DNA of 40,189 bases from an uncultured Erysipelotrichaceae bacterium (GCA_900317295.1 ONGB01000014.1:1-40189), one strand, 5' to 3'; shown: positions 10,377 through 26,133, numbered from the stretch's first letter. The notes: generated by a model from the sequence alone, not told the origin. Numbers and translations are program-made.

Positions 10377-10592
10377 TTAGTGGGAGGAAACGCCTTCTTC
10401 TGGGATGTCTTTCAATATCGCGGGGCATTGTCCCCCGATTTGGATGTCATAAAGGACTTTACCCTGCCCGTCTTGTTTGATCGCATATATGTAGCCGAAC
10501 GCCCGTTCCCCGCGGAAACGGAAATAGACCATATCGCCTTCGTGATAACGCGAAACGATCTCCGGTTTCTTTTTCCTTTTAAAGAAGCACAT
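10377..10592 (-). CDS. Small basic protein of 71 residues, hypothetical
   Basis: The product starts MCFFKRKKKPEIVSRYHEGD and continues with several predicted beta strands (MVYFRFRG, AFGYIYAIKQD, KVLYDIQIGG). This resembles a small SH3-like barrel behind a basic N-terminus. A longer open frame runs upstream but is only the antisense shadow of the flavoprotein gene. A TATAAT box lies 9 bases before this ATG and no ribosome binding site is seen. It lies on the same strand as the ABC exporter, 60 bases upstream of its apparent start, so it may be co-transcribed with it, as the short bmrB frame is with bmrCD in B. subtilis. That parallel is an inference; I do not recognise the family. Confidence 0.6.
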   Translation of the reverse strand: MCFFKRKKKPEIVSRYHEGDMVYFRFRGERAFGYIYAIKQDGQGKVLYDIQIGGQCPAILKDIPEEGVSSH

Positions 10593-10601
10593 GGCCCGTA
10601 A

Positions 10602-10607
10602 ATTATA
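10602..10607 (-). promoter_or_regulatory. -10 box of the 71-residue ORF
   Basis: TATAAT on the minus strand ends 9 bases before the ATG at 10592. No good -35 box is seen. It lies back-to-back with the plus-strand -10 box at 10656, leaving an 84-base divergent promoter region. Confidence 0.5.
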
Positions 10608-10655
10608 GGAAATCCCGCCTCTTTTGGCGATGTTCCTCTTTTTCGCGCGAGAGCA

Positions 10656-10661
10656 TATAAT
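10656..10661 (+). promoter_or_regulatory. -10 box of the flavoprotein gene
   Basis: TATAAT lies 15 bases before the ATG at 10677, giving a leader of about 9 nt without a ribosome binding site. The -35 region is weak. Confidence 0.5.
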
Positions 10662-10676
10662 AATCGGGCTGTTTTT

Positions 10677-12233
10677 ATGTCTAAGAAAGTCATTATTATC
10701 GGCGCCGGCCCAGCCGGCCTGACCGCCGCTTACCAATTGCTCACCCAAAGCGACATCAAACCGATCGTTTTGGAGGCGGAGTCTTTCGTCGGGGGCATTT
10801 CCCGCACCTACGAATTCCACGGGAACCGCATGGACATCGGGGGCCACCGCTTCTTCACCAAATCCGATGAGGTCAACGCCCTTTGGGAAAAGATGATGCC
10901 CATCCAAGGCGCTCCGGCCTATGACGATAAGATCCTCGGGAACGAGAAACCTTTCGTCGAAGGCGGACCCGACCCCGAGAAGGAAGACGACGTGATGCTG
11001 CTCCGCCACCGCGTCTCCCGCATCTATTTCCTTAAGAAATTCTTCGATTACCCGATTTCTTTGAAATTCCGCACTCTGAAGAACATGGGCTTCGGCCGCA
11101 CGATGAAAGCAGGGTTCGGCTATTTGGGATCCTGCATCCATAAGCGGAAAGAGAAGTCCCTGGAGGATTTCTACATCAACCGCTTTGGCAAGCCGCTTTA
11201 TCAGCTTTTCTTTGAGGACTACACGACCAAGCTTTGGGGGGTCCACCCCTCTAACCTTTCCGCGGATTGGGGCGCCCAGCGCGTCAAGGGGCTTTCCTTA
11301 GGCAAAACCCTATGGAACGCGATCAGCAAACCCTTCCGCAAGAAGAAAACCAAAGTCGAAACCTCATTGATCGATCAATTCGAATACCCCAAGAAGGGCC
11401 CCGGCCAACTCTATGAGAAGATGGCGGAGGAAGTCATCCGCCTAGGCGGGCAGATCGTCTATGGGGCGAAGGTCTCCTCCATCGAGAAAAACGAATCCGG
11501 CATCGTTGCTTTGTCCACCGCCGATGGCAAGCGTTATGAGGCGGATGCCGTCTTCTCCTCCATGCCGATCAAAGACCTATTCGAGGCGTTCGGAAAAGAC
11601 AACGTTCCCGAGAAACCCTATGAAATCGCCACTCAATTGCCGTATCGCGACTTCATCACCGTCGGGTTGCTACTCGATCGGTTGAAAATCAAAAACCAGA
11701 CCAAGATCAAAACGTTGAACAACATCGTCCCCGACAACTGGATCTATGTTCAGGAACGCGAAGTGAAGATGGGCCGCATCCAGATCTTCAATAACTGGTC
11801 GCCTTATATGCTGGAAGACCCCGAACACAAGGTGTGGATGGGGCTGGAATACTTCTGCACCGAGGGCGACGAGATGTGGGAGGCCTCCGACGAGGATTTC
11901 ATCGCCTTCGCCACCAAAGAATTGGTCTCCATGGGCATCATCGAAAGCGAATCCGACGTTTTGGACGCCTGCCGCCTCCGCGTGAAGAAGGCCTACCCGG
12001 CTTACTTCGGGTCCTATGACGAATTTCCCGTGGTCCGCGAGTATCTCGATTCGATCCCGAACCTCTATTGCATCGGCAGAAATGGCCAGCACCGTTATAA
12101 CAACATGGACCATTCAATGCTCACCGCGATGGTCGCCGTCAATGACCTTCTAGAAGGGAAGGCGGATAAGTCCGCCCTTTGGGAGGTCAACACGGAGAAG
12201 GCCTACCACGAAGAGAAAGAGGAAAAGAAATAA
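10677..12233 (+). CDS. FAD-dependent oxidoreductase, UDP-galactopyranose mutase-like
   Basis: The 518-residue protein opens with the dinucleotide-binding fold [19 protein letters not shown] and a second-strand acid (VLEAES). [22 protein letters not shown] follows, a pattern seen in UDP-galactopyranose mutase-like and amine-oxidase-like flavoproteins. The C-terminal [24 protein letters not shown] should close the FAD site. No signal or membrane helix is present. Such proteins are often encoded next to membrane glycosyltransferases in polysaccharide or lipid-sugar loci, and here the next gene is a family 39-like transferase that overlaps by one base (TAATG). Whether it is a true mutase or another sugar or lipid oxidoreductase cannot be decided by eye. 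Confidence 0.8.
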
Positions 12234-14428: not shown

Positions 14429-15893
14429 ATTGCTCGCTGTCGGCGACCGAGGCGGCGAAAAGGTCATCGATCTGGGTGGCGAGATCGTCGGAGTTTAAAC
14501 AGGTTTCTAAAAGCAGCCCAACATTCGTGCGGGCGTTGCCGGAGCCGCGGAAAACGGGGGTATTGAAGGTGTTCCCTTTGACTTCGGCGATCTTTTTAAG
14601 GTTATCGGCCTCGCCGATTTCATAAATCGTTCCTTCCTCGCCCGCGGCGATCTTTTCGTAATATTCCTCGCTCTCGTAGACGCTATTGCGGACACCGATA
14701 TAGCCCGTGGAAAGCGACCACCTCTTAGCGTGCTCGGGATCGGTGATATAGCGCCATAGCAGATAGGAGGCGAGGGAGCGGTTCTCGTCTTCGTGGTCAA
14801 GGATGCAAACCGAGGGTCCTTGGTTAATCGAGGCGCCCCCCTTCCCTTCCGCATGGGGGATTTTGGCCACGCCGACGGAGAAAGGCACCAGCCCTTTGTT
14901 TTCCGCGTCCCGTTCGCTGACGAAATTATAGGAAAGCCCCGCCGTAGATGAGATGGTGAATAACGCCTCACGGGATTGGAAGAGATAGGAGACATAGTCC
15001 TGATAGGTTTTCCGGGTTTGGAGATACCCCGCCTCCTTGGCCTGATTCAGCTTCAGCATCAAGCCCTTCATGCCGGGGTTATCGTAATCGATGCTGCCGC
15101 GACCATCTTCTTTGAAACTTGTATAGCCATAGCCATATTGGTTCGCCAAAGTGATGAAGAAGTTTTCGTCGGAATCGTAGGTGACGATGCCGGAATTCTC
15201 GGTGACCTTCATGATTTTGTGGTCGTCATCTTGGGCGTCGTTATAGCTTTTAATCGCGGGGCAGAGGCGATCGAACAGTTCTTCCCACGAAAGATTATCC
15301 AAATAGGCTTCGTCCAAAGGCCGGCCGCTATTGATAGAAGCGTCGATGCCGCTTAGATCTAGGCCAAGCAACACGTCCGCATTGTAATAAAGCAGTTCCG
15401 TCGATTTGCAAAATGGCAGCGAGTAGGTGCCCTTTTCTTTATAGGAGGAGCCTTCTTCCAGGAAAGACGTGATATAGTCGTCGTCTTGATCGATGCCGTA
15501 AGTCTCGTTAGCGCGATAGTCATCTACTTTCACGACATAGCCGCGGTCATAGTATTTGACGACGTTGTCGGGATAGCATTGCACCAAATCCGGGTAGTCT
15601 TCTTTATAGAAGCCGGCCACGACGGTCCTTTCTAGCGCCCCATAATCCCCCGAGCCGAGCGGGTTGGTCAAATTGACATCGACGTTAGGCTCCGTTTCTT
15701 CAAATTCTTCAACCATCTCCTCAAGCAGCGCGAAATAATTCCCGTCTACCATGCAGAGGAATTCAATCTCGGTTTTCTCTTTGATGATGAAATCGCCCTC
15801 CTCGGGCGTGGAAGTCGAACTTTGCCCGGGGGCGGAGGCGTTGCACCCGGTGACCAACAAGGGCAACAGGAGGAGAAGAATCTTGGATTTCAC
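14412..15893 (-). CDS. Extracellular solute-binding lipoprotein
   Basis: The 493-residue protein has a lipoprotein signal (KSKILLLLLPLLVTGC, lipobox LVTGC), so it should be lipid-anchored outside the membrane. A Ser/Thr-rich linker is followed by a family 1 binding-protein fold: IEFLCMVDGNYFALLEEMVEEFEE, a DYPDLVQCYPDNVVKYYDRGYVV segment and SLPFCKSTELLYYN. These features are typical of carbohydrate-type ABC binding proteins. No permease genes adjoin it. The cut-off ATPase at 1-268 could belong to the same system, but other binding proteins may lie outside the window. It lies divergently next to the cyclic-di-GMP cluster, 47 bases from the HAMP/HD-GYP receptor gene. Confidence 0.9.
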   Translation of the reverse strand: MKSKILLLLLPLLVTGCNASAPGQSSTSTPEEGDFIIKEKTEIEFLCMVDGNYFALLEEMVEEFEETEPNVDVNLTNPLGSGDYGALERTVVAGFYKEDYPDLVQCYPDNVVKYYDRGYVVKVDDYRANETYGIDQDDDYITSFLEEGSSYKEKGTYSLPFCKSTELLYYNADVLLGLDLSGIDASINSGRPLDEAYLDNLSWEELFDRLCPAIKSYNDAQDDDHKIMKVTENSGIVTYDSDENFFITLANQYGYGYTSFKEDGRGSIDYDNPGMKGLMLKLNQAKEAGYLQTRKTYQDYVSYLFQSREALFTISSTAGLSYNFVSERDAENKGLVPFSVGVAKIPHAEGKGGASINQGPSVCILDHEDENRSLASYLLWRYITDPEHAKRWSLSTGYIGVRNSVYESEEYYEKIAAGEEGTIYEIGEADNLKKIAEVKGNTFNTPVFRGSGNARTNVGLLLETCLNSDDLATQIDDLFAASVADSEQYVPKS

Positions 15894-15940: not shown

Positions 15941-17680
15941 ATGCGGGGCAAAATGCGTTTCTCCATCCGTGCCAAGTTGGCCGTCATGTCGATGGCGACC
16001 ATCGCCCTTTCCGTTACGACGTTAGGGGCCGTTTTGACCACGACTTCCGCGACCAACGCCCGCCAAACCGCAGCCAATAACCTCTCCTCCGTCGCCATCA
16101 ACGCCGCGGCGGCTTTGGAGGGATCCATCGCTTCCGTCGACACTTCAATGAAGCTGCTCTCTAGCCAAATCGGCTATAACCACGATTTCGCCAACTCAAT
16201 CCTAGACGCCTCCACTTCCCCTGCCGCCGCAGCCCAGCTGAAGAAAGCGATGTCGGGGAGCGGCCTAACCGGGGACGCTTCCACGATCGTCGGGGCCATG
16301 GACTATTTGGTCATTGCTGACCACAACATCATCTCCGCGACGATGTATTCCCCCTTCGTTGAACCAGATAAGCCCGTCGCGAACCGTTTATTCCACACTA
16401 GCCTCAGCCAAGTCGAATGCACCGCCGAGCGATACGCCGCCTTAACGGAGCATTCGGGCCGCTCCTTCTGGTTCTTTGGGGACAATGACACCCTTTATGT
16501 TTGGAAAGCCCTCGTCAATTTCGGCGTGGACGATGTCTATGACATGCAGGTCGTCGGCTACGTGGAATATGGCTTTGACCGCGCATCTTTCCTCGAATGT
16601 CTCACCGGCACGGCCTACGAAGACGAAGGCATGCTCCTCATCGACGAGAACGCCAACATCGTATTGAACATCTCCTCGGGTGAAGACAAGGTCGATGACA
16701 AAGTCGCCAATGGCACCCCCAATATCCGCGAAGGCCTAAGACAGAACTCCGACCATACCGTGTATCGTTCGGAAATCGTTTCCCAAAATTGGACCTACAT
16801 CGCCTATATCAACCACCGCTCCCTCCAAAAGGCCATCAACGCGAACATCTGGTCTTCCGTTTTGATCATCGCGATCGCCGTGGTGGTCTCCGTCTTGGTG
16901 GCCGCGCTGCTTTCCACCAAGGAAATCCGCCGCATCCGCGGTTTGTCAAAGGCCGCAGGCGACATCAGCTCCGGGAACTATGATGCCCGCATCGCCAAGA
17001 AAGCGAATGACGAAATCACGGATGTGAGCGAAAGTTTCAACGCGATGGCGGATAAGGTCCAAGAATCCTTGCAGGAACTGATCGATCAACAAGACAGCAT
17101 CTCCGAAAATTTCGCGACCATCCTTTCCAACAAATCGGGCGAATCCGGCAACCACGTCAAGCGCGTCGGCGAATATAGCGCCATCCTCGCGCAAGAACTT
17201 GGCTTTGACGAAAGCCGCGTCCATGACGTCCGCATCGCGGCGATGCTTCATGACGTAGGCAAGATCATGATCGACGAAAAGATCCTCCATAAACCCGGCC
17301 GGTTCACCGAGGAAGAATATAGAATCATGCAGCAGCACGTCGATTTCGGCGGGCAACTCCTACAAGGGGTTCCGGGCAACATCATGCAGCTTGGCGCGAT
17401 CATCGCCCAATACCATCACGAACGCTGGGACGGCACGGGGTACACGCATCGCCTAAAAGGCGACGAAATCCCCGTAGAAGCCCAAATCGCATCGGTCGCC
17501 GACGTATTCGATGCCTTGGTCAGCCACCGTTGCTACAAAGAAGCTTGGACGATCGAGCAGGCCCGTGAAGAAATCCTTGCCCAGCGCGGCAGGCAATTCT
17601 CCCCGGCTGCGGTCGATGCCTTCGAACGGCGTTTCGAGGATTTCCGGCACATCGCCGAAGTCTACCGGGACGAGCTATAA
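15941..17680 (+). CDS. Membrane receptor with Cache-like sensor, HAMP and HD-GYP domains
   Basis: The 579-residue protein (575 if ATG 15953 is used) has helix 1 near residues 11-34, an external sensor region of about 250 residues, helix 2 near 290-320 (SVLIIAIAVVVSVLVAALL), a HAMP segment (EIRRIRGLSKAAGDISSGNYDARI) and an HD-GYP domain. The HD pair is His437-Asp438 in MLHDVGKI and HHERWDGTGY is present, but the GYP triplet reads GYT (500-502). HD-GYP enzymes break down cyclic-di-GMP, so this is probably a ligand-controlled phosphodiesterase. The solute-binding lipoprotein on the other strand could feed it information, as in other sensor/binding-protein pairs; that is inference. Confidence 0.9.
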   Translation: MRGKMRFSIRAKLAVMSMATIALSVTTLGAVLTTTSATNARQTAANNLSSVAINAAAALEGSIASVDTSMKLLSSQIGYNHDFANSILDASTSPAAAAQLKKAMSGSGLTGDASTIVGAMDYLVIADHNIISATMYSPFVEPDKPVANRLFHTSLSQVECTAERYAALTEHSGRSFWFFGDNDTLYVWKALVNFGVDDVYDMQVVGYVEYGFDRASFLECLTGTAYEDEGMLLIDENANIVLNISSGEDKVDDKVANGTPNIREGLRQNSDHTVYRSEIVSQNWTYIAYINHRSLQKAINANIWSSVLIIAIAVVVSVLVAALLSTKEIRRIRGLSKAAGDISSGNYDARIAKKANDEITDVSESFNAMADKVQESLQELIDQQDSISENFATILSNKSGESGNHVKRVGEYSAILAQELGFDESRVHDVRIAAMLHDVGKIMIDEKILHKPGRFTEEEYRIMQQHVDFGGQLLQGVPGNIMQLGAIIAQYHHERWDGTGYTHRLKGDEIPVEAQIASVADVFDALVSHRCYKEAWTIEQAREEILAQRGRQFSPAAVDAFERRFEDFRHIAEVYRDEL

Positions 17681-17716
17681 ACCAATCCATCCGCGATTTG
17701 CATATATATTCATGAA

Positions 17717-17755
17717 AAATGGCCGCCTTCGTTTGGACGGCCATTTCTCTTTTGT
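17717..17755. terminator. Bidirectional terminator between HD-GYP and GGDEF genes
   Basis: A perfect nine-pair stem (AAATGGCCG/CGGCCATTT) around a 12-base loop is followed by CTCTTTTGTTTT on the plus strand and TTTTTC on the minus strand. It can stop both convergent messages. Confidence 0.85.
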
Positions 17756-17756
17756 T

Positions 17757-18788
17757 TTAGATGATGGTTTTATTTTTTCCGGTCTTTTTGCCGTTATACA
17801 TTTTCTGGTCGGCGAGTTCGACCCACCGTTCTAGTTCCAATCCGTTCATGTATTTCGCGGCCCCGATGGTGATGGTGAGGTGGATCTTCCTGCCTTCGTA
17901 TTCCATTTCCTCGGTTTCAATGACCTTGCGGAATTCTTCCAGCCTATCCAGGGCGGGTTTTTGCGGCTTGTCGTCCAAGACCGCGACGAATTCTTCTCCG
18001 CCATAACGGCAGACGAACGCGTCTTCAAGGGATTGGGCGGCGACTTCGGCGACCCTTTTTAAGACGATGTCCCCCGCCGCATGGCCACAGGTGTCGTTAA
18101 TGACCTTGAAGTCATCGATATCAAACAAAGCCAAGACCTTCGTGGATTTGTCCTTCTCCGCATCGAAAAAGTCATAAAGCCCATAACGGTTGCTAATCTG
18201 GGTGAGCTCGTCGGTGCGGGATTCGCTGATAATCTTCTTTTCCAAGGAAAGCGCGTATCTCAAGAAGATGGAAAGGAAGCCGGAGATGATGAGGAAAACG
18301 ATTACCGCGTGGGTGGTGAACAAAGTGAGTTCCAACCAAGCGTCCACTTCGTAATACGGCTTGTTGAATTTGGTAACGAAATATAGGGTTAGGTAGATCG
18401 CCATAGAAAGGCCGACCCAAAGAAAAGACCCCTTGATGTTCTTTTTCGTGGAAAAATAGGTGGCGAAGAACGATACGACGCAGAACCCAATCAAGAAGAA
18501 GTGGAATCCCGTCGAGAAGCCTAGCATCAACGTAGCCAAGATAATGAAAGCGAAGAACTCGTTTCCCACGCTTAAGGCGTAGATGAAGTACTTTTTGAAT
18601 TTGATCAGCAGGAAGAAGAGCAAATAAAGGGCGATGATCCCCGCGACCACATAGACCATGACGTAAATCTTGGCCACTAGGAAAAGAACCAAATAAAAGG
18701 CGTGCAGGAACAGATACATAATGTTCGCCGCGTAACATGTTCTGCCGATCGTTTTATAACGCCGGGCTTTCTCGTTGGTGGTTGGCAT
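17757..18788 (-). CDS. Membrane diguanylate cyclase (GGDEF domain)
   Basis: The 343-residue protein has about six membrane helices in residues 20-190 with short loops, then a cytoplasmic GGDEF domain. LALFDIDDFKVINDTCGHAAGDIVL and RYGGEEF (GGEEF at 263-267) carry the metal- and GTP-binding residues, so it should make cyclic-di-GMP. The RxxD inhibitory site expected five residues before GGEEF is absent (LEDA), so product inhibition through that site is unlikely. It is the only cyclase in the window and sits among three HD-GYP genes. The N-terminal membrane region has no obvious extracellular sensor domain and may sense membrane state or a small molecule. Confidence 0.92.
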   Translation of the reverse strand: MPTTNEKARRYKTIGRTCYAANIMYLFLHAFYLVLFLVAKIYVMVYVVAGIIALYLLFFLLIKFKKYFIYALSVGNEFFAFIILATLMLGFSTGFHFFLIGFCVVSFFATYFSTKKNIKGSFLWVGLSMAIYLTLYFVTKFNKPYYEVDAWLELTLFTTHAVIVFLIISGFLSIFLRYALSLEKKIISESRTDELTQISNRYGLYDFFDAEKDKSTKVLALFDIDDFKVINDTCGHAAGDIVLKRVAEVAAQSLEDAFVCRYGGEEFVAVLDDKPQKPALDRLEEFRKVIETEEMEYEGRKIHLTITIGAAKYMNGLELERWVELADQKMYNGKKTGKNKTII

Positions 18789-18808
18789 TTTTTGGACTTC
18801 AATTTCTT

Positions 18809-18837
18809 ATTATAAGAAACCAAAAACAAAGTGTGAA
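18809..18837 (-). promoter_or_regulatory. Promoter of the GGDEF gene
   Basis: On the minus strand TTCACA (18837-18832) and TATAAT (18814-18809) are 17 bases apart. The leader would be about 13 nt, with no ribosome binding site before the ATG at 18788. Confidence 0.6.
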
Positions 18838-18919
18838 TATCCGGGACAAAGGCGCGTTATCGGCCTCGTTTTCGCTTCGCTTTGCTTTGGGGGGCTACAA
18901 AAGCAGACGGGCCGACCTT

Positions 18920-19447
18920 TTATTTCGTCAATTCATAGACATATAAAGTAACGGGCTCTGGCTTTAATGGCGAAGCGTGTTCCCGCCTTTCCGCCTTAAT
19001 GAAACGGAACCCGCATTTTTGGATCACGCGATTGCTGCCGATATTATCCACCGCCGCCTTGATGACTACCTTTTGGTAGCCAAGGCCAAAGAGGTGTCGG
19101 ACAAAGGCCTTGCAGACTTCGGTCATCAAGCCCTGGCCCCAAAGCCTTCTAGAGAGGCAATAACCGATTTCGGGCGCCCCGTCGACGTAGCCGACGACAT
19201 CGATCGACCCTTGGGGTTCGTCGTTTCCTTTCAAGGTAATGATGAACCGAACGGTGCTGGGATCTTTTTCTTCCGTGACCCATTTGCCCACGATCTCCCT
19301 GGTCACTTCGACGCTTTCGTGAGGCGTCCAAGTTAAATACTTGGTGACCTCAGGGTCGCTGGCCCAGTTTCGAAACATCGGTTCTGCGTCTTCTTTTTTC
19401 GGCTTCCTAAGAACGCACCTATCCGTGACTAATATTTTGTAATCCAT
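18920..19447 (-). CDS. GNAT-family N-acetyltransferase, RimJ/RimL-like
   Basis: The 175-residue protein begins DYKILVTDRCVLRKPKKEDAEPMFRNWASDPEVTKYLTW, the usual opening of RimJ/RimL-type acetyltransferases, and has the acetyl-CoA-binding region IGYCLSRRLWGQGLMTEVCKAF and DNIGSNRVIQKCGF. It should transfer acetyl from acetyl-CoA to an amine on a protein or small molecule in the cytoplasm. The open frame continues 20 codons upstream, but family alignment favours the ATG at 19447. TAGTAT lies 7 bases before that ATG, suggesting a leaderless message. The gene interrupts the cyclic-di-GMP gene cluster without an obvious link to it. Confidence 0.85.
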   Translation of the reverse strand: MDYKILVTDRCVLRKPKKEDAEPMFRNWASDPEVTKYLTWTPHESVEVTREIVGKWVTEEKDPSTVRFIITLKGNDEPQGSIDVVGYVDGAPEIGYCLSRRLWGQGLMTEVCKAFVRHLFGLGYQKVVIKAAVDNIGSNRVIQKCGFRFIKAERREHASPLKPEPVTLYVYELTK

Positions 19448-19454
19448 GTGCAAA

Positions 19455-19486
19455 ATACTACAGAATTCGGCTCCGAATAGCATTAA
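19455..19486 (-). promoter_or_regulatory. -10 box and palindrome upstream of the GNAT gene
   Basis: TAGTAT (minus, 19460-19455) ends 7 bases before the ATG. Just upstream is a perfect palindrome, ATTCGG-CT-CCGAAT, in the expected spacer/-35 region, a candidate operator. Confidence 0.35.
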
Positions 19487-19596
19487 CGAAAAACCGTAAA
19501 GGCGCAAGGCAAAGCTAGGCTTCGCCCGCCGAAAATCAGAGACGAAAAATTTAGAAAATAGTACCTATTTTCAAAATTCGTTATATAGTTGTAGGC

Positions 19597-20472
19597 ATGG
19601 AACCCTTACATGTCGTGATTCTTTCGCTCATTATCGTTGGCGCCTTGCTCATGGTCGCTAACATCGTCTTTTACATTCGCATGATGCTGCGGATGAGAGA
19701 CGTTATTTCCGGCGGCGTTAGAAGGGACAACATCATGGTGAGCTTTGGTCTCGTCTTATTGATCTTCTTCTTGGGCGGATACATCTTCGTCGGCATATAC
19801 GCCGATCCGCACTTGGTCACCAGCTTAATCTTGTTCTTCGGCAGCTTGTTTGTTTCCGTGGTCATCGTTTTGTTGACCAGGTTGTTGCGAACATCCAAAG
19901 AAAGGTCGTTAGAAATCACTGAGGTTTTGGCGGACATCATCGATACGCGCGGTCAGCATAACGAAGGCCACGTTTTGCATGTCAAAAACCTAATGGACCT
20001 GTTCTATAAACATCTTCCAAGGAACATCCAAGGCGAATATAGCTTGGTCAGCATAGAATACGCCGCGCTGCTTCATGATGTTGGCAGATCCAGCATTCCT
20101 CAGGAAATCGTGGATAAAGCAGGGGAACTAACCCCCGAAGAAGAGGAGATTGTGCGGGCCCACCCTCAAGTGACCGTTCGTCTATTAAGGGGCGTCAAGT
20201 CGTTTGATTACATCAGCGATTGGCTTTTATATCATCACGAAAAAGTCGATGGCACCGGCTACTACTTTAAAAAAGGCGATACCATCCCCTTGCCTAGCAA
20301 AATGCTCGCCATCTGCGACGCCTATTCCAAACTGATCAAGGATATGGACCACGATGCGGCGATCGCCGCAATTCAAGACGGGGTCAACAAAGACTTCGAC
20401 GAGGAATTGGTCCATATCTTCGTCAGCATCCCCAAAGAGGACGTTTTGGCTTGCCTGCCCAAAAGAAAATGA
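19597..20472 (+). CDS. Membrane HD-GYP-related protein with altered motif residues
   Basis: The 291-residue protein has three membrane helices in roughly residues 5-95, then a cytoplasmic HD-GYP-like domain. LADIIDTRGQHNEGHVLHV matches the domain start. His160-Asp161 lies in LLHDVGR, where arginine replaces the usual lysine, and HHEKVDGTGYYFKKGDTIP has GYY (221-223) instead of GYP. These changes could weaken cyclic-di-GMP hydrolysis or alter specificity, so a regulatory or binding role is possible. A TATAGT box 7 bases before the ATG suggests a leaderless message. The stop codon overlaps the ATG of the permease/HD-GYP gene (ATGA), so the two are translationally coupled and probably work together. 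Confidence 0.85.
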   Translation: MEPLHVVILSLIIVGALLMVANIVFYIRMMLRMRDVISGGVRRDNIMVSFGLVLLIFFLGGYIFVGIYADPHLVTSLILFFGSLFVSVVIVLLTRLLRTSKERSLEITEVLADIIDTRGQHNEGHVLHVKNLMDLFYKHLPRNIQGEYSLVSIEYAALLHDVGRSSIPQEIVDKAGELTPEEEEIVRAHPQVTVRLLRGVKSFDYISDWLLYHHEKVDGTGYYFKKGDTIPLPSKMLAICDAYSKLIKDMDHDAAIAAIQDGVNKDFDEELVHIFVSIPKEDVLACLPKRK

Positions 20473-22715
20473 GTCATACGAAATCCAGTAAATCGATATC
20501 CGCTTTGGGGGCGTTCTCCCTATCCATCGGCACGGCGATCGGATGGGGCTCGTTCGTCGTTACGGGCAGCTCTTTTTTAAGCAAGGCCGGCCCTCTGGGA
20601 AGCGTAATCGGCATTGTTGTCGGCACCTTGATCATGTTGGTGATCGCATATAACTACCACTATATGATCAACAAATATCCTGACAGCAATGGGGGTATTT
20701 ACACTTACGCCAAAAACACATTGGGAGGCGACCACGCCTTCTTGGTAGCGTGGTTTTTAATCATCACCTATGCCGCGATTTTGTGGGCAAACGTATCTTC
20801 TTTCGCTTTATTTGCTAGGTACGTATTCGGCTCCACCTTCCAATTCGGGTTCCATTATGTGCTAGGCGGATACGATGTTTGGCTAGGCGAAATCCTATTA
20901 TCGCTGTTTTTCTTGTTGCTGTTCGGCGGCATTTGCCTGCTGAAAAGGAAAATAACGGCGGGGGTCCAGTCGGGCTTGGTCTTAATATTCATATCTTTGA
21001 TTGTGGCCGGCTTTATTGTCGCCGCGATCATGCATAAGGGCGGCTTCGAGTCCTATAAGCCGGACTTCGCCAACAACGGAAGCGGCGAATTCTCTCAGGT
21101 CGTTGGGGTTATCGGCATGATGCCCTGGGCATTTATTGGGTTTGAAAACATCTCCCACTCTTCCAAAAACTTCAAATTCAGGCACAAAAACGTCTTTAAG
21201 GTGCTGATCGCTTCCGTTGTCGTCACCGCGGTTATCTATATTTTGATTTGCATGCTGTCCATCAGCGTTTTCCCCAGCGAATACGCCAACTGGTATGAAT
21301 ACCTGACTTCTTCGTCCTCGCTAAGCGGCTTAGACGGCATCCCCGCCTTCTACGTCATGCATCGCTATTTAGGCACGTGGGGATTGGTGATGTTCGTCGT
21401 CGCCTTAAGCGCCATCATCATGACGAGCTTGATCGGCAATATCGTCGCCTTATCCAACCTAATCCAAACGATGTCCGAAGACCGCGTTTTCTTTAAGGGT
21501 TTTGCCAAATTGGATAAAAACGAGGCCCCGCGAAACGTCATCATCTTCATTCTTGTCGTGACGGCGTTGATGCTATTTTTCGGCAGGGTATTAATCGGTT
21601 GGATCGTCGATGTTAATACCTTCTGCGGCATCATTGTTTATACCTATATCTCCGCGATTAGTTTCACCCAGGCCAAAAAGGACAACAACCTAGAAGGCCT
21701 TATCTCGAGCATAGCGGGTTTGGTGCTTGGCGTGGGCTTTGCCATTTCCGTCGTGGCCAGCAGCTTCGTTAATGCCGATTACCTGGCAAAAGAATCCATC
21801 TTCATCTTCATTGTTTGGGCGGCGATCGGCTTTGGATATTACGGCTTTTTGGTCAAAAAAGACAAAAAGAGGATGTTCGGCAATTCCATGATTGCCCTGT
21901 TCGGCTTATTCGTCCTGATCGTTTTTGGCATCGCTTCTTGGTTGTTCAAAACCGCGACCGAGACTAGCGAGGTCAATGTAGGCGAAATCAGCTTTGCCCT
22001 CATCTTTAGTTCTTTATTAATCATCGGGACGCAATTTGTTTTCTTCTTTGTGTTCTCAACGGTCAAGAACCGAGAAATCAAGGTTCAGGATAAGTTGTTT
22101 TATGGCATGGCCACGATGGTCGAAGGAAGAGACAAATCCACGGGCGGTCACATCAAAAGAACGAGCGACGTCGTCAAGTTCTTGGTTCAAGAGATGATGG
22201 ACGATCCGTTATTGAACATCAGCTCCTCCTTTTCTCAAAGCGTCATCAAAAGCGCCCCTATGCACGATTTGGGCAAAATAACGATCGATGATGCGATATT
22301 GAGGAAACCGGGCAAATTCACCGACGAAGAATATGCCATTATGAAAACCCATTCCAAAGAAGGTTCCGTCATCGTCAATCAGATCTTAGAAGACGTCGTC
22401 GATAAGAGCTTTGAAGAAATTGCGGTCAACATTGCCCATTATCACCACGAAAGATGGGACGGCAAAGGCTATCCTAACGGCCTGAAAGGCGACGAAATAC
22501 CCTTAGAGGCCCGCATTATGGCTATCGCAGACGTTTATGATGCCCTGGTTAGCAAAAGGGTATACAAAGACGAATTCTCCTTTGACGACGCCAACAACAT
22601 CATTATTTCCAACATGGGGAAACAGTTCGATCCGGGCTTGGAAAAGTATTATGTCCGAGCCAGAAGCAAAATCGAAAACTATTATTCCGCGATAAGGAAC
22701 GGGAAAGAGAAATAA
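20469..22715 (+). CDS. APC-family amino-acid permease fused to an HD-GYP phosphodiesterase
   Basis: The 748-residue protein has two parts. Residues 1 to about 535 form an amino-acid/polyamine permease of the APC superfamily: FSLSIGTAIGWGSFVVTGS is the substrate-binding break of helix 1, and about 14 hydrophobic segments follow. From about residue 545 a full HD-GYP domain starts with MVEGRDKSTGGHIKRT. It has His599-Asp600 in MHDLGK, KPGKFTDEEY, HHERWDGKGYPNGLKGDEIP (GYP at 667-669) and ADVYDAL, all intact. The likely role is to couple amino-acid transport or sensing to cyclic-di-GMP breakdown at the membrane. The start is the ATG at 20469, inside the upstream stop; an earlier in-frame codon at 20451 exists. 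No ribosome binding site is visible, in keeping with coupling. Confidence 0.92.
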   Translation: MSHTKSSKSISALGAFSLSIGTAIGWGSFVVTGSSFLSKAGPLGSVIGIVVGTLIMLVIAYNYHYMINKYPDSNGGIYTYAKNTLGGDHAFLVAWFLIITYAAILWANVSSFALFARYVFGSTFQFGFHYVLGGYDVWLGEILLSLFFLLLFGGICLLKRKITAGVQSGLVLIFISLIVAGFIVAAIMHKGGFESYKPDFANNGSGEFSQVVGVIGMMPWAFIGFENISHSSKNFKFRHKNVFKVLIASVVVTAVIYILICMLSISVFPSEYANWYEYLTSSSSLSGLDGIPAFYVMHRYLGTWGLVMFVVALSAIIMTSLIGNIVALSNLIQTMSEDRVFFKGFAKLDKNEAPRNVIIFILVVTALMLFFGRVLIGWIVDVNTFCGIIVYTYISAISFTQAKKDNNLEGLISSIAGLVLGVGFAISVVASSFVNADYLAKESIFIFIVWAAIGFGYYGFLVKKDKKRMFGNSMIALFGLFVLIVFGIASWLFKTATETSEVNVGEISFALIFSSLLIIGTQFVFFFVFSTVKNREIKVQDKLFYGMATMVEGRDKSTGGHIKRTSDVVKFLVQEMMDDPLLNISSSFSQSVIKSAPMHDLGKITIDDAILRKPGKFTDEEYAIMKTHSKEGSVIVNQILEDVVDKSFEEIAVNIAHYHHERWDGKGYPNGLKGDEIPLEARIMAIADVYDALVSKRVYKDEFSFDDANNIIISNMGKQFDPGLEKYYVRARSKIENYYSAIRNGKEK

Positions 22716-22869
22716 CCGCTTGGTTGGGTCGCGGTCAAAATGTCCTGCCACGAGGTCGTGATTTTCATCCAAAGACAGTTGTCTTGGGAGAAGAGGGTAT
22801 AGTATTCCCCTGATAGAAAACGACGTCCGGATCTCGTGGATTGCTATTGGTTTTGCTAAGGATTTTCAT
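22682..22869 (-). pseudogene. Possible small coding remnant or short ORF
   Basis: In the gap after the permease gene, a 34-codon frame from ATG 22869 to TGA 22765 begins MKILSKTNSNPRDPDVVFYQG. The neighbouring frame continues with protein-like sequence (EYYTLFSQDNCLWMKITTSW) to a TAA at 22682. A single frame change after the YQG codons would join them into about 60 residues. CATAAT lies 6 bases before the ATG. No family is recognised and chance cannot be excluded. Confidence 0.2.
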
Positions 22870-22945
22870 GACCCCATTATGTCAAAAGCCAGGGTCGCAA
22901 AAATATGCAAAAATAGAGATGTCGGAATGCACTAAAAAGACACGT

Positions 22946-24331
22946 TTATTGAACGGGCGCCCCGCTGGGAGACGAGGAATCTGACGTGGTTTTCGGTTCC
23001 GCTTGTTGTTCCTGGGCCTTGAGCCTTTGTTCTCTTCTGGCCTTCCACGCGAGGAACCTTTCCTCCCGTTCTTTTAGCTGCTGTTCGAATTCCGGTTTGG
23101 GTCTCATTCCCAACTCATAGTCGAACCGCGTTCCGTATTTGGTGAGCCGCGCCGCGAAACGCTCGATGATCCTGGAGAGGAGTCGGTCGTTCCAATCCGC
23201 CGGTTCCAAGACAACGACTTTTTCGAAAGCCCGGCTTTCCCAATACCATTTTTCGAAAGCCCCGTAGCAGCACTCGACTTTGACGACGGCGTCTTGGACG
23301 GCAATAAAGTCCTCTGAACCATCGAGGTGTTTTCTTTTGACCCGCCTTTCCTGCAAAGCATATTTCATGTCACCTTCTTTGAAAAAGGCTTCGAATTTTG
23401 CCTTCATTTCGGGAATGGCTTCCAAATCGAGGCCGGCACAGAACTTGAAGGTGACGGTGGTTTTCCTGTGCCCTGCTTGTCCCTTGAAATAAGAGGTATA
23501 CCAATCATCGATGGTTCGGGGGCCTTTTAGTTCGAAAATGGGCTCCTCCATCGGAGGAAAGGGACTATATAGATCATTTAGGACGACATTGTTCGCGTTC
23601 GTGATGACTGCGTTTTTGTAGTCGGGCATATAGATGCACACCTTGGTGGATTTCGCCGTTTGCGTCACCTCATAGACGTAGCCGGCATAATACCCTGGAT
23701 AAATCGGTTTAACCCTCTTTCTTTCGCGCTCCGCCATGACCGGGGGCAGTCTAAGGGGCGTCGATAAAACGACATCATCTGGGTCCGGCCTTCGGTTCAG
23801 TTTGAAATAGAAGCGGGCCTTGTTATCCCTGAGCCAGATGAGTTTGTCGATCATACCCATCTGGGCGTCCGTAATGTGGCGCTTAACCATGGAGGGGGTT
23901 TTATGGAGGATACCCAGCACCTGTTTCTTCTTTTCTTGGTCCGTCGCTTTATCCAAAAAACTTCCGATCAACTGATCCGATGCCTTTTCGGTGAGGCCGC
24001 CATAGTCTTTGACCGCATAGGCGATCTTTTTGATTTCTATGTCGCTGAAGAGATTCTTCTTTACAAAATAACGTGGTTTGTTTCCGACCCGAACGACCGT
24101 GTACGGGATAACGCCGGGGTAGTCACGGGTGAATTCGACAAGGTCGTCAAAGATGTCGTTGGCCTTCCTTCGATCCACGAATTCGTTGAAATGCTCCATA
24201 GCATAGGCCTGGAGTTCAACGGTCTTCGATGTGCGTTTTTCGCTAGGGCAGTTGTCCAAGAGGTAGTTTAGGGCGATGAACATCTCTAACCTCGTCGCAT
24301 GGGATTGCTTCCCGTTATATTTATAATCCAT
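22946..24331 (-). CDS. WYL-domain-type transcriptional regulator
   Basis: The 461-residue protein starts with a winged helix-turn-helix-like region (RLEMFIALNYLLDN, then VDRRKANDIFDDLVEFTRDY), followed by YFVKKNLFSDIEIKKIAYAVKD, the transition seen in WYL regulators. A central beta-rich region (YYAGYVYEVTQTAKSTKVCIYMPDYKNAVI) fits the WYL fold, and the C-terminal WESRAFEKVVVLEPADWNDRLL fits the WCX extension. A charged, low-complexity tail of about 50 residues ends the protein. WYL regulators bind nucleic-acid-type ligands and often control stress or defence genes. The gene has a good AGGAGG site and lies downstream of the FtsH-like gene with its own promoter sharing a sequence with that gene. 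Confidence 0.6.
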   Translation of the reverse strand: MDYKYNGKQSHATRLEMFIALNYLLDNCPSEKRTSKTVELQAYAMEHFNEFVDRRKANDIFDDLVEFTRDYPGVIPYTVVRVGNKPRYFVKKNLFSDIEIKKIAYAVKDYGGLTEKASDQLIGSFLDKATDQEKKKQVLGILHKTPSMVKRHITDAQMGMIDKLIWLRDNKARFYFKLNRRPDPDDVVLSTPLRLPPVMAERERKRVKPIYPGYYAGYVYEVTQTAKSTKVCIYMPDYKNAVITNANNVVLNDLYSPFPPMEEPIFELKGPRTIDDWYTSYFKGQAGHRKTTVTFKFCAGLDLEAIPEMKAKFEAFFKEGDMKYALQERRVKRKHLDGSEDFIAVQDAVVKVECCYGAFEKWYWESRAFEKVVVLEPADWNDRLLSRIIERFAARLTKYGTRFDYELGMRPKPEFEQQLKEREERFLAWKARREQRLKAQEQQAEPKTTSDSSSPSGAPVQ

Positions 24332-24497: not shown

Positions 24498-25922
24498 CTA
24501 TCCGATAACGGACAGAATCTCCGACGACTTAAGGTGCTTTTTCTCAAAGAGAAGCTGACCCAAGGCGATGATTTGCGAACGATGTTCTTTGATGTATTTG
24601 GAGGTCTCTTTTTCGCATTTTCTGAGAAGTTTCTCGATTTTCTTCTCCATTTTCCTGCGTTTGACCACCGTGTCGGCGCGGGCGCCGGGCCTGAGGAGGG
24701 GGAGAGTTTCCCAACAGGACGAATACCCCACCATATTAATTAAGTTGTAAGCGTCCATCCTCGCGCGTTGGAGGTCCTGGTCGCAACCGCGAGAACCGCG
24801 GCCACAGAGAAGCTTTTGGGCGAGGATTCCCGCCATCGAGATTTTGATGTCGGCCAGCACTTTGTCATACGGCCAGAAGCCCTCCACCACCTGTTTCGCG
24901 TGGAAGGCGCCGGAAGCGCCGGAGATGTTAAGCCTATTGATAGAGAAGAATTGTGGGAAAGCTTTCGCCACAACTGCGTGGCCGGCCTCATGGATGGCTA
25001 CTTCCAGGTTATCTTCCCTTGGCGCCTCTTTGATGCGGTCGGTGACGTTATAGATGGAGGCGTCGATCATCTCGGAAGTGATGTTCTCGAAGCCGTTCCT
25101 AAGAACGATGTCGTTCACCATCGCCTTCACCCCGGCGCAGCTGACCCCGTTAAGCGACAACGCCACCCCTTCTTCATCGAAGTCTTCCGGAAGAGCGAGG
25201 TTAAATTCCTTGAAATGCTTCTTAAGGAGGTTTACCGCCTCTTCGCCCGTGGGGTAAGGGATATTAATAAGCTTTTCGAGGCGCCCATTTCGCATTAACG
25301 CGTCGGGGATCTCCCCCATTTCGTTGGTCGCGGCCAAGACGAGGATGTCGTCGCTCGATTCAACCCCATCGAGGTTCTCCTGAAGGACCCGGATCACCCT
25401 TCTCTCTTTGTTGATGAGCAGGTCCAATTCGTCCAAGACGATGATGGCGTGGCCGGCCTCCCTGGCTTTTCTGAAAGTCTCGACGATGCCTTCGGCAACA
25501 TTGCTTTGCTCGCCTTGAAAGACGAAGACGGGGGCCTCGCAGCAGCGAATGATTTCTTTGATGAGCAGCGACTTGCCGTTGCCGGGATCGCCAAAGAGAA
25601 TGACCCCGCGCGGGATGGATACGCCCCTCTTCTTCAATTCTTCCGAGCGCTTGAACCAGTCGACGACGGCAAGCAGCTCTTTCTTTTGGCTTTCGTGGCC
25701 AACTACCTTGCCCAAGGGCTCCTCGCCCTCTTCAAGCTTCGAGGCGTTGATGAGTTGATAGGGGCCGGGCCCCTTTTCGTTGTTTGGTTCGCCTTCGGCG
25801 GCGGGGTTGGGGCGCTTGCCTCCCCCATACGCTTTCGCGACCTCCTCGAAGCTCAGCAGATCTTCGTCGTCCTCTTGAATCACCTCGTTTTCCTCATTGG
25901 TTGGTTTAATGAATTCCAGCAT
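24498..25922 (-). CDS. Soluble FtsH-like AAA ATPase with M41 peptidase domain
   Basis: From the ATG at 25922 the protein has 474 residues. An acidic N-terminal 60 residues without any membrane helix is followed by an AAA domain: Walker A GDPGNGKS, Walker B AIIVLDELDLL, sensor LAATNEMGEIP and an arginine-rich MRNGRLEK region. A peptidase M41 domain follows with HEAGHAVVA (two zinc histidines and the catalytic Glu) and DQDLQRARMDAYNL for the third ligand. FtsH proper has two N-terminal helices; their absence points to a cytoplasmic protease. The start is set by a perfect AGAGGAGG site 7 bases away, although the frame stays open 54 codons further up. The targets are unknown; the WYL regulator downstream is an obvious candidate partner. 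Confidence 0.88.
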   Translation of the reverse strand: MLEFIKPTNEENEVIQEDDEDLLSFEEVAKAYGGGKRPNPAAEGEPNNEKGPGPYQLINASKLEEGEEPLGKVVGHESQKKELLAVVDWFKRSEELKKRGVSIPRGVILFGDPGNGKSLLIKEIIRCCEAPVFVFQGEQSNVAEGIVETFRKAREAGHAIIVLDELDLLINKERRVIRVLQENLDGVESSDDILVLAATNEMGEIPDALMRNGRLEKLINIPYPTGEEAVNLLKKHFKEFNLALPEDFDEEGVALSLNGVSCAGVKAMVNDIVLRNGFENITSEMIDASIYNVTDRIKEAPREDNLEVAIHEAGHAVVAKAFPQFFSINRLNISGASGAFHAKQVVEGFWPYDKVLADIKISMAGILAQKLLCGRGSRGCDQDLQRARMDAYNLINMVGYSSCWETLPLLRPGARADTVVKRRKMEKKIEKLLRKCEKETSKYIKEHRSQIIALGQLLFEKKHLKSSEILSVIG

Positions 25923-25939
25923 ATTCTTTCCTCCTCTGA

Positions 25940-25955
25940 GCCCTATTATGGGGTG
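25940..25955 (-). promoter_or_regulatory. Shared promoter element, FtsH-like gene copy
   Basis: The plus strand reads GCCCTATTATGGGGTG, matching the element before the WYL gene at 15 of 16 positions and containing a CATAAT -10 box on the minus strand. It ends 17 bases before the ATG, just upstream of the ribosome binding site. Confidence 0.5.
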
Positions 25956-26133
25956 AGGATTCCGGTCAGTTTTGATGTTCGTAAAAATGTCTCTGAGTCT
26001 GCACATTTGTTTTCTCGGCGTCGATAACGAGCGAAAAAACAGGACATGCGGTCTTGCGGCGGCAGGATGGATGGTTTTGTGCAAAGCTGGATGGATAGAC
26101 TTGGGGGCGACAGAAACAGACTAATTAATTACT

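Follow-up and report, generated by a model that had tools for sequence, protein, structure and literature searches.

A permease-fold membrane protein fused to HD-GYP is a member of a multi-phylum family of putative receptors with interchangeable outputs

The window analyzed here, a 40,189-nucleotide stretch of DNA from an uncultured Erysipelotrichaceae bacterium (GCA_900317295.1 ONGB01000014.1:1-40189), carries one open reading frame of 748 residues (P0001; 20469..22715, +) whose translation contains no internal stop and joins an APC permease to an HD-GYP domain. An alternative start, TTG at position 20451, would lengthen the product to 754 residues. The permease domain (AA_permease_2, PF13520) spans residues 11-448 (20499..21812, +) with a Pfam value of 6e-34, a score of 118 bits against a cut-off of 27, and coverage of profile positions 2-421 of 427, whereas HD_5 spans residues 582-723 (22212..22637, +) with a value of 6.8e-28, far above its cut-off. 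The HD motif is found at residues 599-600 (22263-22268), HHE at 659-661, and GYP at 667-669 (22467-22475). An earlier note on this DNA had described the same unbroken frame and placed these motifs, and both descriptions are correct to the residue. A fusion of about 750 residues recurs at 62-96% identity in other assemblies, which rules out a misassembly or a chance fusion. No promoter or terminator scored above shuffled expectation in a scan of positions 19300-23000.

Directly upstream lies a partner gene (P0002, 291 residues; 19597..20472, +), whose stop codon overlaps the start codon of the fusion (ATGA) and which encodes three transmembrane (TM) helices, a helix, and a degenerate HD-GYP-like domain with GYY in place of GYP. 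The surroundings also include a HAMP-HD-GYP membrane protein with GYT for GYP (15941..17680, +) and a membrane GGDEF protein with a GGEEF motif (17757..18788, -), a possible source of c-di-GMP; thus, four genes of c-di-GMP type, occupying 15941-20472 plus the fusion, lie within about 7 kb. Since the genome contains ten GGDEF matches, c-di-GMP is likely made in this host; a search of the same genome for a PilZ effector gave no match. On the other side of the fusion, we observe a 461-residue protein with no Pfam match (22946-24331, -) and a 528-residue FtsH-like protein with AAA and M41 protease domains (24498-26084, -), which has no obvious N-terminal membrane segment and scores 146 bits against the FtsH family cut-off of 600.

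We aligned the HD-GYP half with a known enzyme, PmGH, as the earlier note had proposed, taking the residue roles from PMC4159591. Seven of the eight metal ligands, the catalytic Asp/Lys pair, the GYP motif, the Ile, and both substrate residues are kept (PmGH D183, H189, H221-D222, K225, H250, H276-H277, GYP, I294, D305, D308, R314, and K317 correspond to D555, H561, H599-D600, K603, H628, H659-H660, 667-669, I677, D688, D691, R697, and K700, respectively). The claim that every motif is present stands for nearly all of the catalytic residues and fails for the bridging carboxylate, E185 of PmGH, which is Ser557 in the fusion and is the only mapped position that differs. This serine belongs to an S-T-G motif that every aligned member of the window's family shares, in place of the E/D-T-G of trinuclear enzymes, and its presence at the E185 position indicates that the metal centre is likely of the two-metal rather than the three-metal type. 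The E185A variant of PmGH retains some activity, and HD-GYPs devoid of this type of carboxylate have been placed among the likely two-metal enzymes (PMC4159591). Judged by its residues, the domain looks active and is predicted to hydrolyze c-di-GMP. A fold search with this half matched PA4781 (TM-score 0.84) and PmGH, which share with the fusion the HD-GYP fold and nearly all catalytic residues but carry soluble input domains (GAF in PmGH) where the fusion has a membrane permease. When proteins of its own kind are set aside, the best matches to the HD-GYP half of this group are membrane HD-GYP proteins with several TM helices from related Bacilli, at no more than 69% identity, which is consistent with domain shuffling.

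Hydropathy indicates 14 TM helices in the fusion. In its AlphaFold model (mean pLDDT 85.9, pTM 0.74, 47 sequences), TM1 and TM6 are broken as in the LeuT-type fold, at residues 24-26 and at 216-217/223-224. The fold search with the permease half matched AdiC and transporters of CAT and LAT type, with a TM-score of up to 0.84 when normalized to AdiC, and profile matches were obtained to CAT1, CAT4, GkApcT, and AdiC; a phmmer search of the first 500 residues alone against the PDB gave no match, whereas the profile and fold searches did. The AdiC/CAT-type transporters thus have the permease fold in common with the fusion, with about 16-19% identity in the fold match, but they stand alone and carry no signalling output. 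AdiC has 12 TM helices and the CATs have 14. None of the best 50 rows of the fold search is a solved structure matching both halves of the fusion.

Between the two domains, residues 449-581 have no Pfam match and are made of two TM helices and one long helix. The two helices, TM13 and TM14 (residues 473-528; 21885..22052, +), are shared by the fused members and absent from free-standing relatives: at least two TM helices beyond TM12 are found in 108 of the 108 fused members tested, compared to none of 16 free-standing relatives. In the model, a single unbroken helix (residues 504-555; 21978..22133, +) runs from TM14 through to the first helix of the HD-GYP domain, and we propose it as the signal transmitter. 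The shared extra helices together with this unbroken helix point to a mechanical coupling of the two halves.

Conservation among 47 aligned members peaks in TM1, TM3, TM6, and TM10 and reaches its minimum in TM14 and the loop that leads into it. The helices lining the site in the LeuT fold (TM1, 3, 6, 8, and 10) form the most conserved part. About 64 positions of the permease module reach 95% identity or more when members with different outputs are compared. The TM1 break, G25-W26-G27 (20541..20549, +), is invariant in 47 of 47 members, and all of the TM1 and TM6 glycines are retained in the fused proteins. The fused clade also has signatures of its own. The W106-A107-N108 motif of TM3 (20784..20792, +) is replaced by P-L-N in most free-standing relatives, and in TM6, PWAFIGFE (residues 219-226), where the model shows the helix break, is followed by S229-H230 (together 21123..21158, +), the latter pair being P-Q in most free-standing relatives. 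In addition, the segment between TM7 and TM8 is longer and conserved in fused members. Judged from the fold, the WAN and SH positions would contact the ligand. These substitutions, specific to the fused clade and near the likely substrate site, leave room for a receptor that has lost transport.

The earlier note had treated the fusion as a single case, and had overlooked the reusable sensor, the added TM13-TM14 pair through which the link runs, and the conserved partner gene with its degenerate HD-GYP domain. Scanning GTDB genomes with alignment A4 (permease plus linker) gave 587 confirmed relatives, from which the best 80 were kept, a ranking biased towards fused forms, since TM13 and TM14 were part of the query. 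By motif scan, these best 80 of 587 comprise 39 proteins with a histidine kinase, 21 with GGDEF, 10 with GGDEF-EAL, 9 with HD-GYP, and one at a contig end. Pfam confirmed the outputs on nine representatives (HisKA-HATPase-REC, GGDEF, GGDEF with EAL, and HD-GYP), one kinase form having an additional sub-threshold Hpt match. A fairer test, though made with the same alignment as query, is a sample of Lachnospiraceae in which 13 of 200 genomes had matches, 18 of the 20 matches being long frames of fused size and 2 short. Among 392 genomes of the window's phylum, the fused form was found in the window's genome only, along with seven short relatives. The plasmid collection yielded only partial matches, 25-28% identical, to stand-alone permeases.

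The hosts among the best 80 include Lachnospiraceae, Oscillospiraceae, Selenomonadaceae, Erysipelotrichaceae, Treponema, Flexilinea and other Chloroflexota, Eggerthellaceae, Coriobacteriaceae, and Synergistaceae; most of the hosts are gut and rumen bacteria, and together they represent five phyla (Bacillota, Spirochaetota, Chloroflexota, Actinomycetota, and Synergistota). Several genomes have two or three permease receptors, some with differing outputs; in a Flexilinea genome, kinase and GGDEF forms occur together with a third that its length marks as GGDEF-EAL. The genome of the cultured isolate Lachnospiraceae AC2029 has both a GGDEF-EAL and a kinase form (L116 and L166), and NK4A144 has a kinase form (L138). 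Two genomes from the window's genus (G003 and G011) also have this permease type, at 36-38% identity, there attached to a histidine kinase plus receiver. The permease part is thus a reusable sensor module whose outputs are swapped.

Within the window's order, 13 of the 279 genomes contain the form with HD-GYP, with identities of 62-96%; they represent two families and seven genera (G000, G017, G023, G026, G027, G030, G064, G095, G161, G189, G202, G203, and G219; the G027 copy is split over two contigs and the G030 copy is partial). Most other genomes of the same seven genera lack it, and such a patchy distribution would fit either acquisition by transfer or loss on repeated occasions. The named records with matches come from rumen and other ruminant-gut Bacilli, such as a contig from roe deer rumen (L071). 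We built an unrooted maximum-likelihood tree of 127 permease modules (quick search, SH-aLRT supports), in which all 111 fused rows, including a second copy of the window's protein, group together and the free-standing relatives fall outside. Members with a kinase output are for the most part set apart from those with c-di-GMP outputs. The supported (starred) branches force at least three changes involving the HD-GYP output, and AU tests reject a single origin of HD-GYP outputs (p = 3e-7) as well as trees in which the main HD-GYP group is united with L144 (p = 0.003) or L089 (p = 6e-5). Next to the window's HD-GYP clade, on a long branch, stands a GGDEF fusion (L078), its nearest neighbour in the tree. 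HD-GYP outputs would therefore have arisen at least three times inside a GGDEF-linked sensor clade, the direction of each change being inferred from an unrooted tree.

The partner gene is a second feature of the window's group. In 11 of the 12 genomes readable at this place, all but G095, the gene immediately preceding the fusion is one of its closest relatives (55-93% identity), while the other neighbours of the pair vary between genomes; more distant homologues (44-50%) occur elsewhere without a permease. The partner retains the metal-binding HD, His, and HH residues. Nevertheless, GYY for GYP is invariant, the position of D308 is Ser244 in 11 of 11 sequences, that of D183 is G119 (Ala, Gly, or a gap in 10 of 11 and Asp in one), and that of K225 is variable. 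In PmGH, substitutions of D183, K225, or D308 resemble the loss of metal ligands in their effect (PMC4159591). We infer from these residues that P0002 is a pseudo-phosphodiesterase. The stretch of P0002 from its last TM helices through the helix to the HD domain can be aligned to residues 472-729 of the fusion at 28% identity, which would suit a pairing of both proteins; its AlphaFold model is only moderate (pLDDT 73).

We consider it probable that the fusion is a membrane receptor built on an APC permease fold, a transceptor or transceptor-like protein, in which a ligand-driven motion sets c-di-GMP hydrolysis, the permease part possibly being still a transporter. The ligand, probably an amino acid or a related amine, would bind the permease site between TM1, TM3, TM6, and TM8 and induce the rocking motion that moves the substrate in transporters. 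TM13, TM14, and the continuous helix 504-555 would pass this motion to the HD-GYP domain, where the rate of c-di-GMP hydrolysis would be altered, and P0002, with its degenerate HD-GYP domain, is probably a regulatory subunit that pairs with the fusion. Neighbouring genes give no clue to the ligand, as no recurrent amino-acid pathway was found around the relatives. More broadly, and on balance, we favour a multi-phylum family of nutrient sensors, made of an APC fold plus two helices, with two-component outputs or outputs that make or destroy c-di-GMP, to which a phosphodiesterase was attached at least three times and which acquired a pseudo-phosphodiesterase partner in the window's group.

A sub-case of this receptor reading, not exclusive of it, is that the permease fold still binds its ligand but no longer transports it, as in KsAmt5 (PMC8534201), and we give this slightly less than an even chance. 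One sensor serving many outputs would fit it, as would relatives that often adjoin other signalling genes rather than transport operons, the WAN and SH substitutions for PLN and PQ near the likely site, and the longer TM7-TM8 lid. Against it, the TM1 and TM6 breaks and all of their glycines are kept, and CbrA, the closest studied case, is reported to both sense and transport (PMC13022988). At the other extreme, the earlier note had considered that loss of transport-critical residues would reduce the permease to a mere membrane anchor of the enzyme. We regard this as very improbable: the nearly identical positions cluster in TM1, TM3, TM6, and TM10, the helices of the substrate site are conserved whereas TM14 and its preceding loop vary, and an anchor would have no need for a conserved 12-TM core in five phyla.

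Two further explanations keep a working transporter, and both appear unlikely. The halves may be independent functions placed on one chain for co-expression or location, and each of them does look complete; however, the fusions share two extra TM helices that free-standing relatives do not have, the helix is continuous into the enzyme, and the output is swapped while the sensor is kept. Alternatively, HD-GYP might gate the transporter, via c-di-GMP or its hydrolysis, since motion through helix 504-555 could run either way. This reverse direction is hard to reconcile with the same permease being joined to a histidine kinase, GGDEF, GGDEF-EAL, or HD-GYP, and a kinase-REC output is sensible downstream of a sensor but not upstream of a transporter.

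The receptor reading that we prefer has parallels in other transporter folds. CbrA/CrbS of Pseudomonas and Vibrio (SLC5-STAC-histidine kinase) is likewise a transporter-fold sensor fused to a signalling output, and the gene just upstream of CbrA, cbrX, again overlaps it and encodes a product that binds the transporter part (PMC13022988). Nevertheless, CbrA/CrbS has an SLC5 fold with 13 TM helices and a STAC linker, where the fusion has an APC fold followed by TM13, TM14, and one helix; CbrX, a small peptide of two helices, is not an HD-GYP-like protein; and the output is a histidine kinase, with GGDEF and HD-GYP forms, both present in the fusion family, not described (PMC13022988). Membership of the CbrA/STAC family was rejected, as the Pfam and fold matches are to APC and not SLC5, and there is no STAC linker. 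In KsAmt5 of Kuenenia, an ammonium transporter domain acts as the receptor for a fused histidine kinase and binds ammonium with no efficient transport (PMC8534201); it differs from the fusion family by its Amt fold and by the kinase being its only output, with no c-di-GMP form. The 5TMR receptors with the S-component fold form a large transceptor class in which the transporter fold is the receptor fold, the fold being that of ECF S-components and not APC; the 2024 paper describing them considers transceptors rare and this fold a widespread prokaryotic case (PMC11109136).

The earlier note knew of no characterized example of the architecture, and we likewise found no description of an APC permease joined to HD-GYP, GGDEF, or a kinase in searches of an open-access library, a result that does not prove that none exists. 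An APC-fold receptor family is thus apparently undescribed, although the transporter-kinase fusions CbrA and KsAmt5 were already known. If our reading is right, a five-phylum gut and rumen family joins the few transporter-fold receptors studied so far, with natural experiments in which one membrane sensor drives opposite enzymes, and rumen bacteria would have a direct link from amino-acid supply to the second messenger of the sessile/motile switch. With a conserved site and a transmitter helix, the coupling lends itself to tests by point mutation and module swaps.

Several minor observations concern individual relatives. A 471-residue free-standing permease near the base of the fused clade (L196, G706:C15) has the longer TM7-TM8 segment without the extra helices and may be a stand-alone relative suited to transport assays. 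At L106, two permease receptors lie side by side, a kinase form (-) and a GGDEF-EAL form (+). In a Coriobacteriaceae genome (L206, G622:C155), a second permease module appears split over two frames and is possibly a decaying copy. In many genomes of Selenomonadaceae (L101, L104, L113, L117, L120, L121, L132, L135, L142, and L147), the gene after the kinase-type receptor encodes a rhodanese-like lipoprotein. Finally, the fusion in G023 (L055) is surrounded by small proteins at 748-1044, 10444-10734, and 15161-15445, with weak Nif11-domain matches just under the cut-off, which may be peptide precursors or zinc-ribbon proteins.
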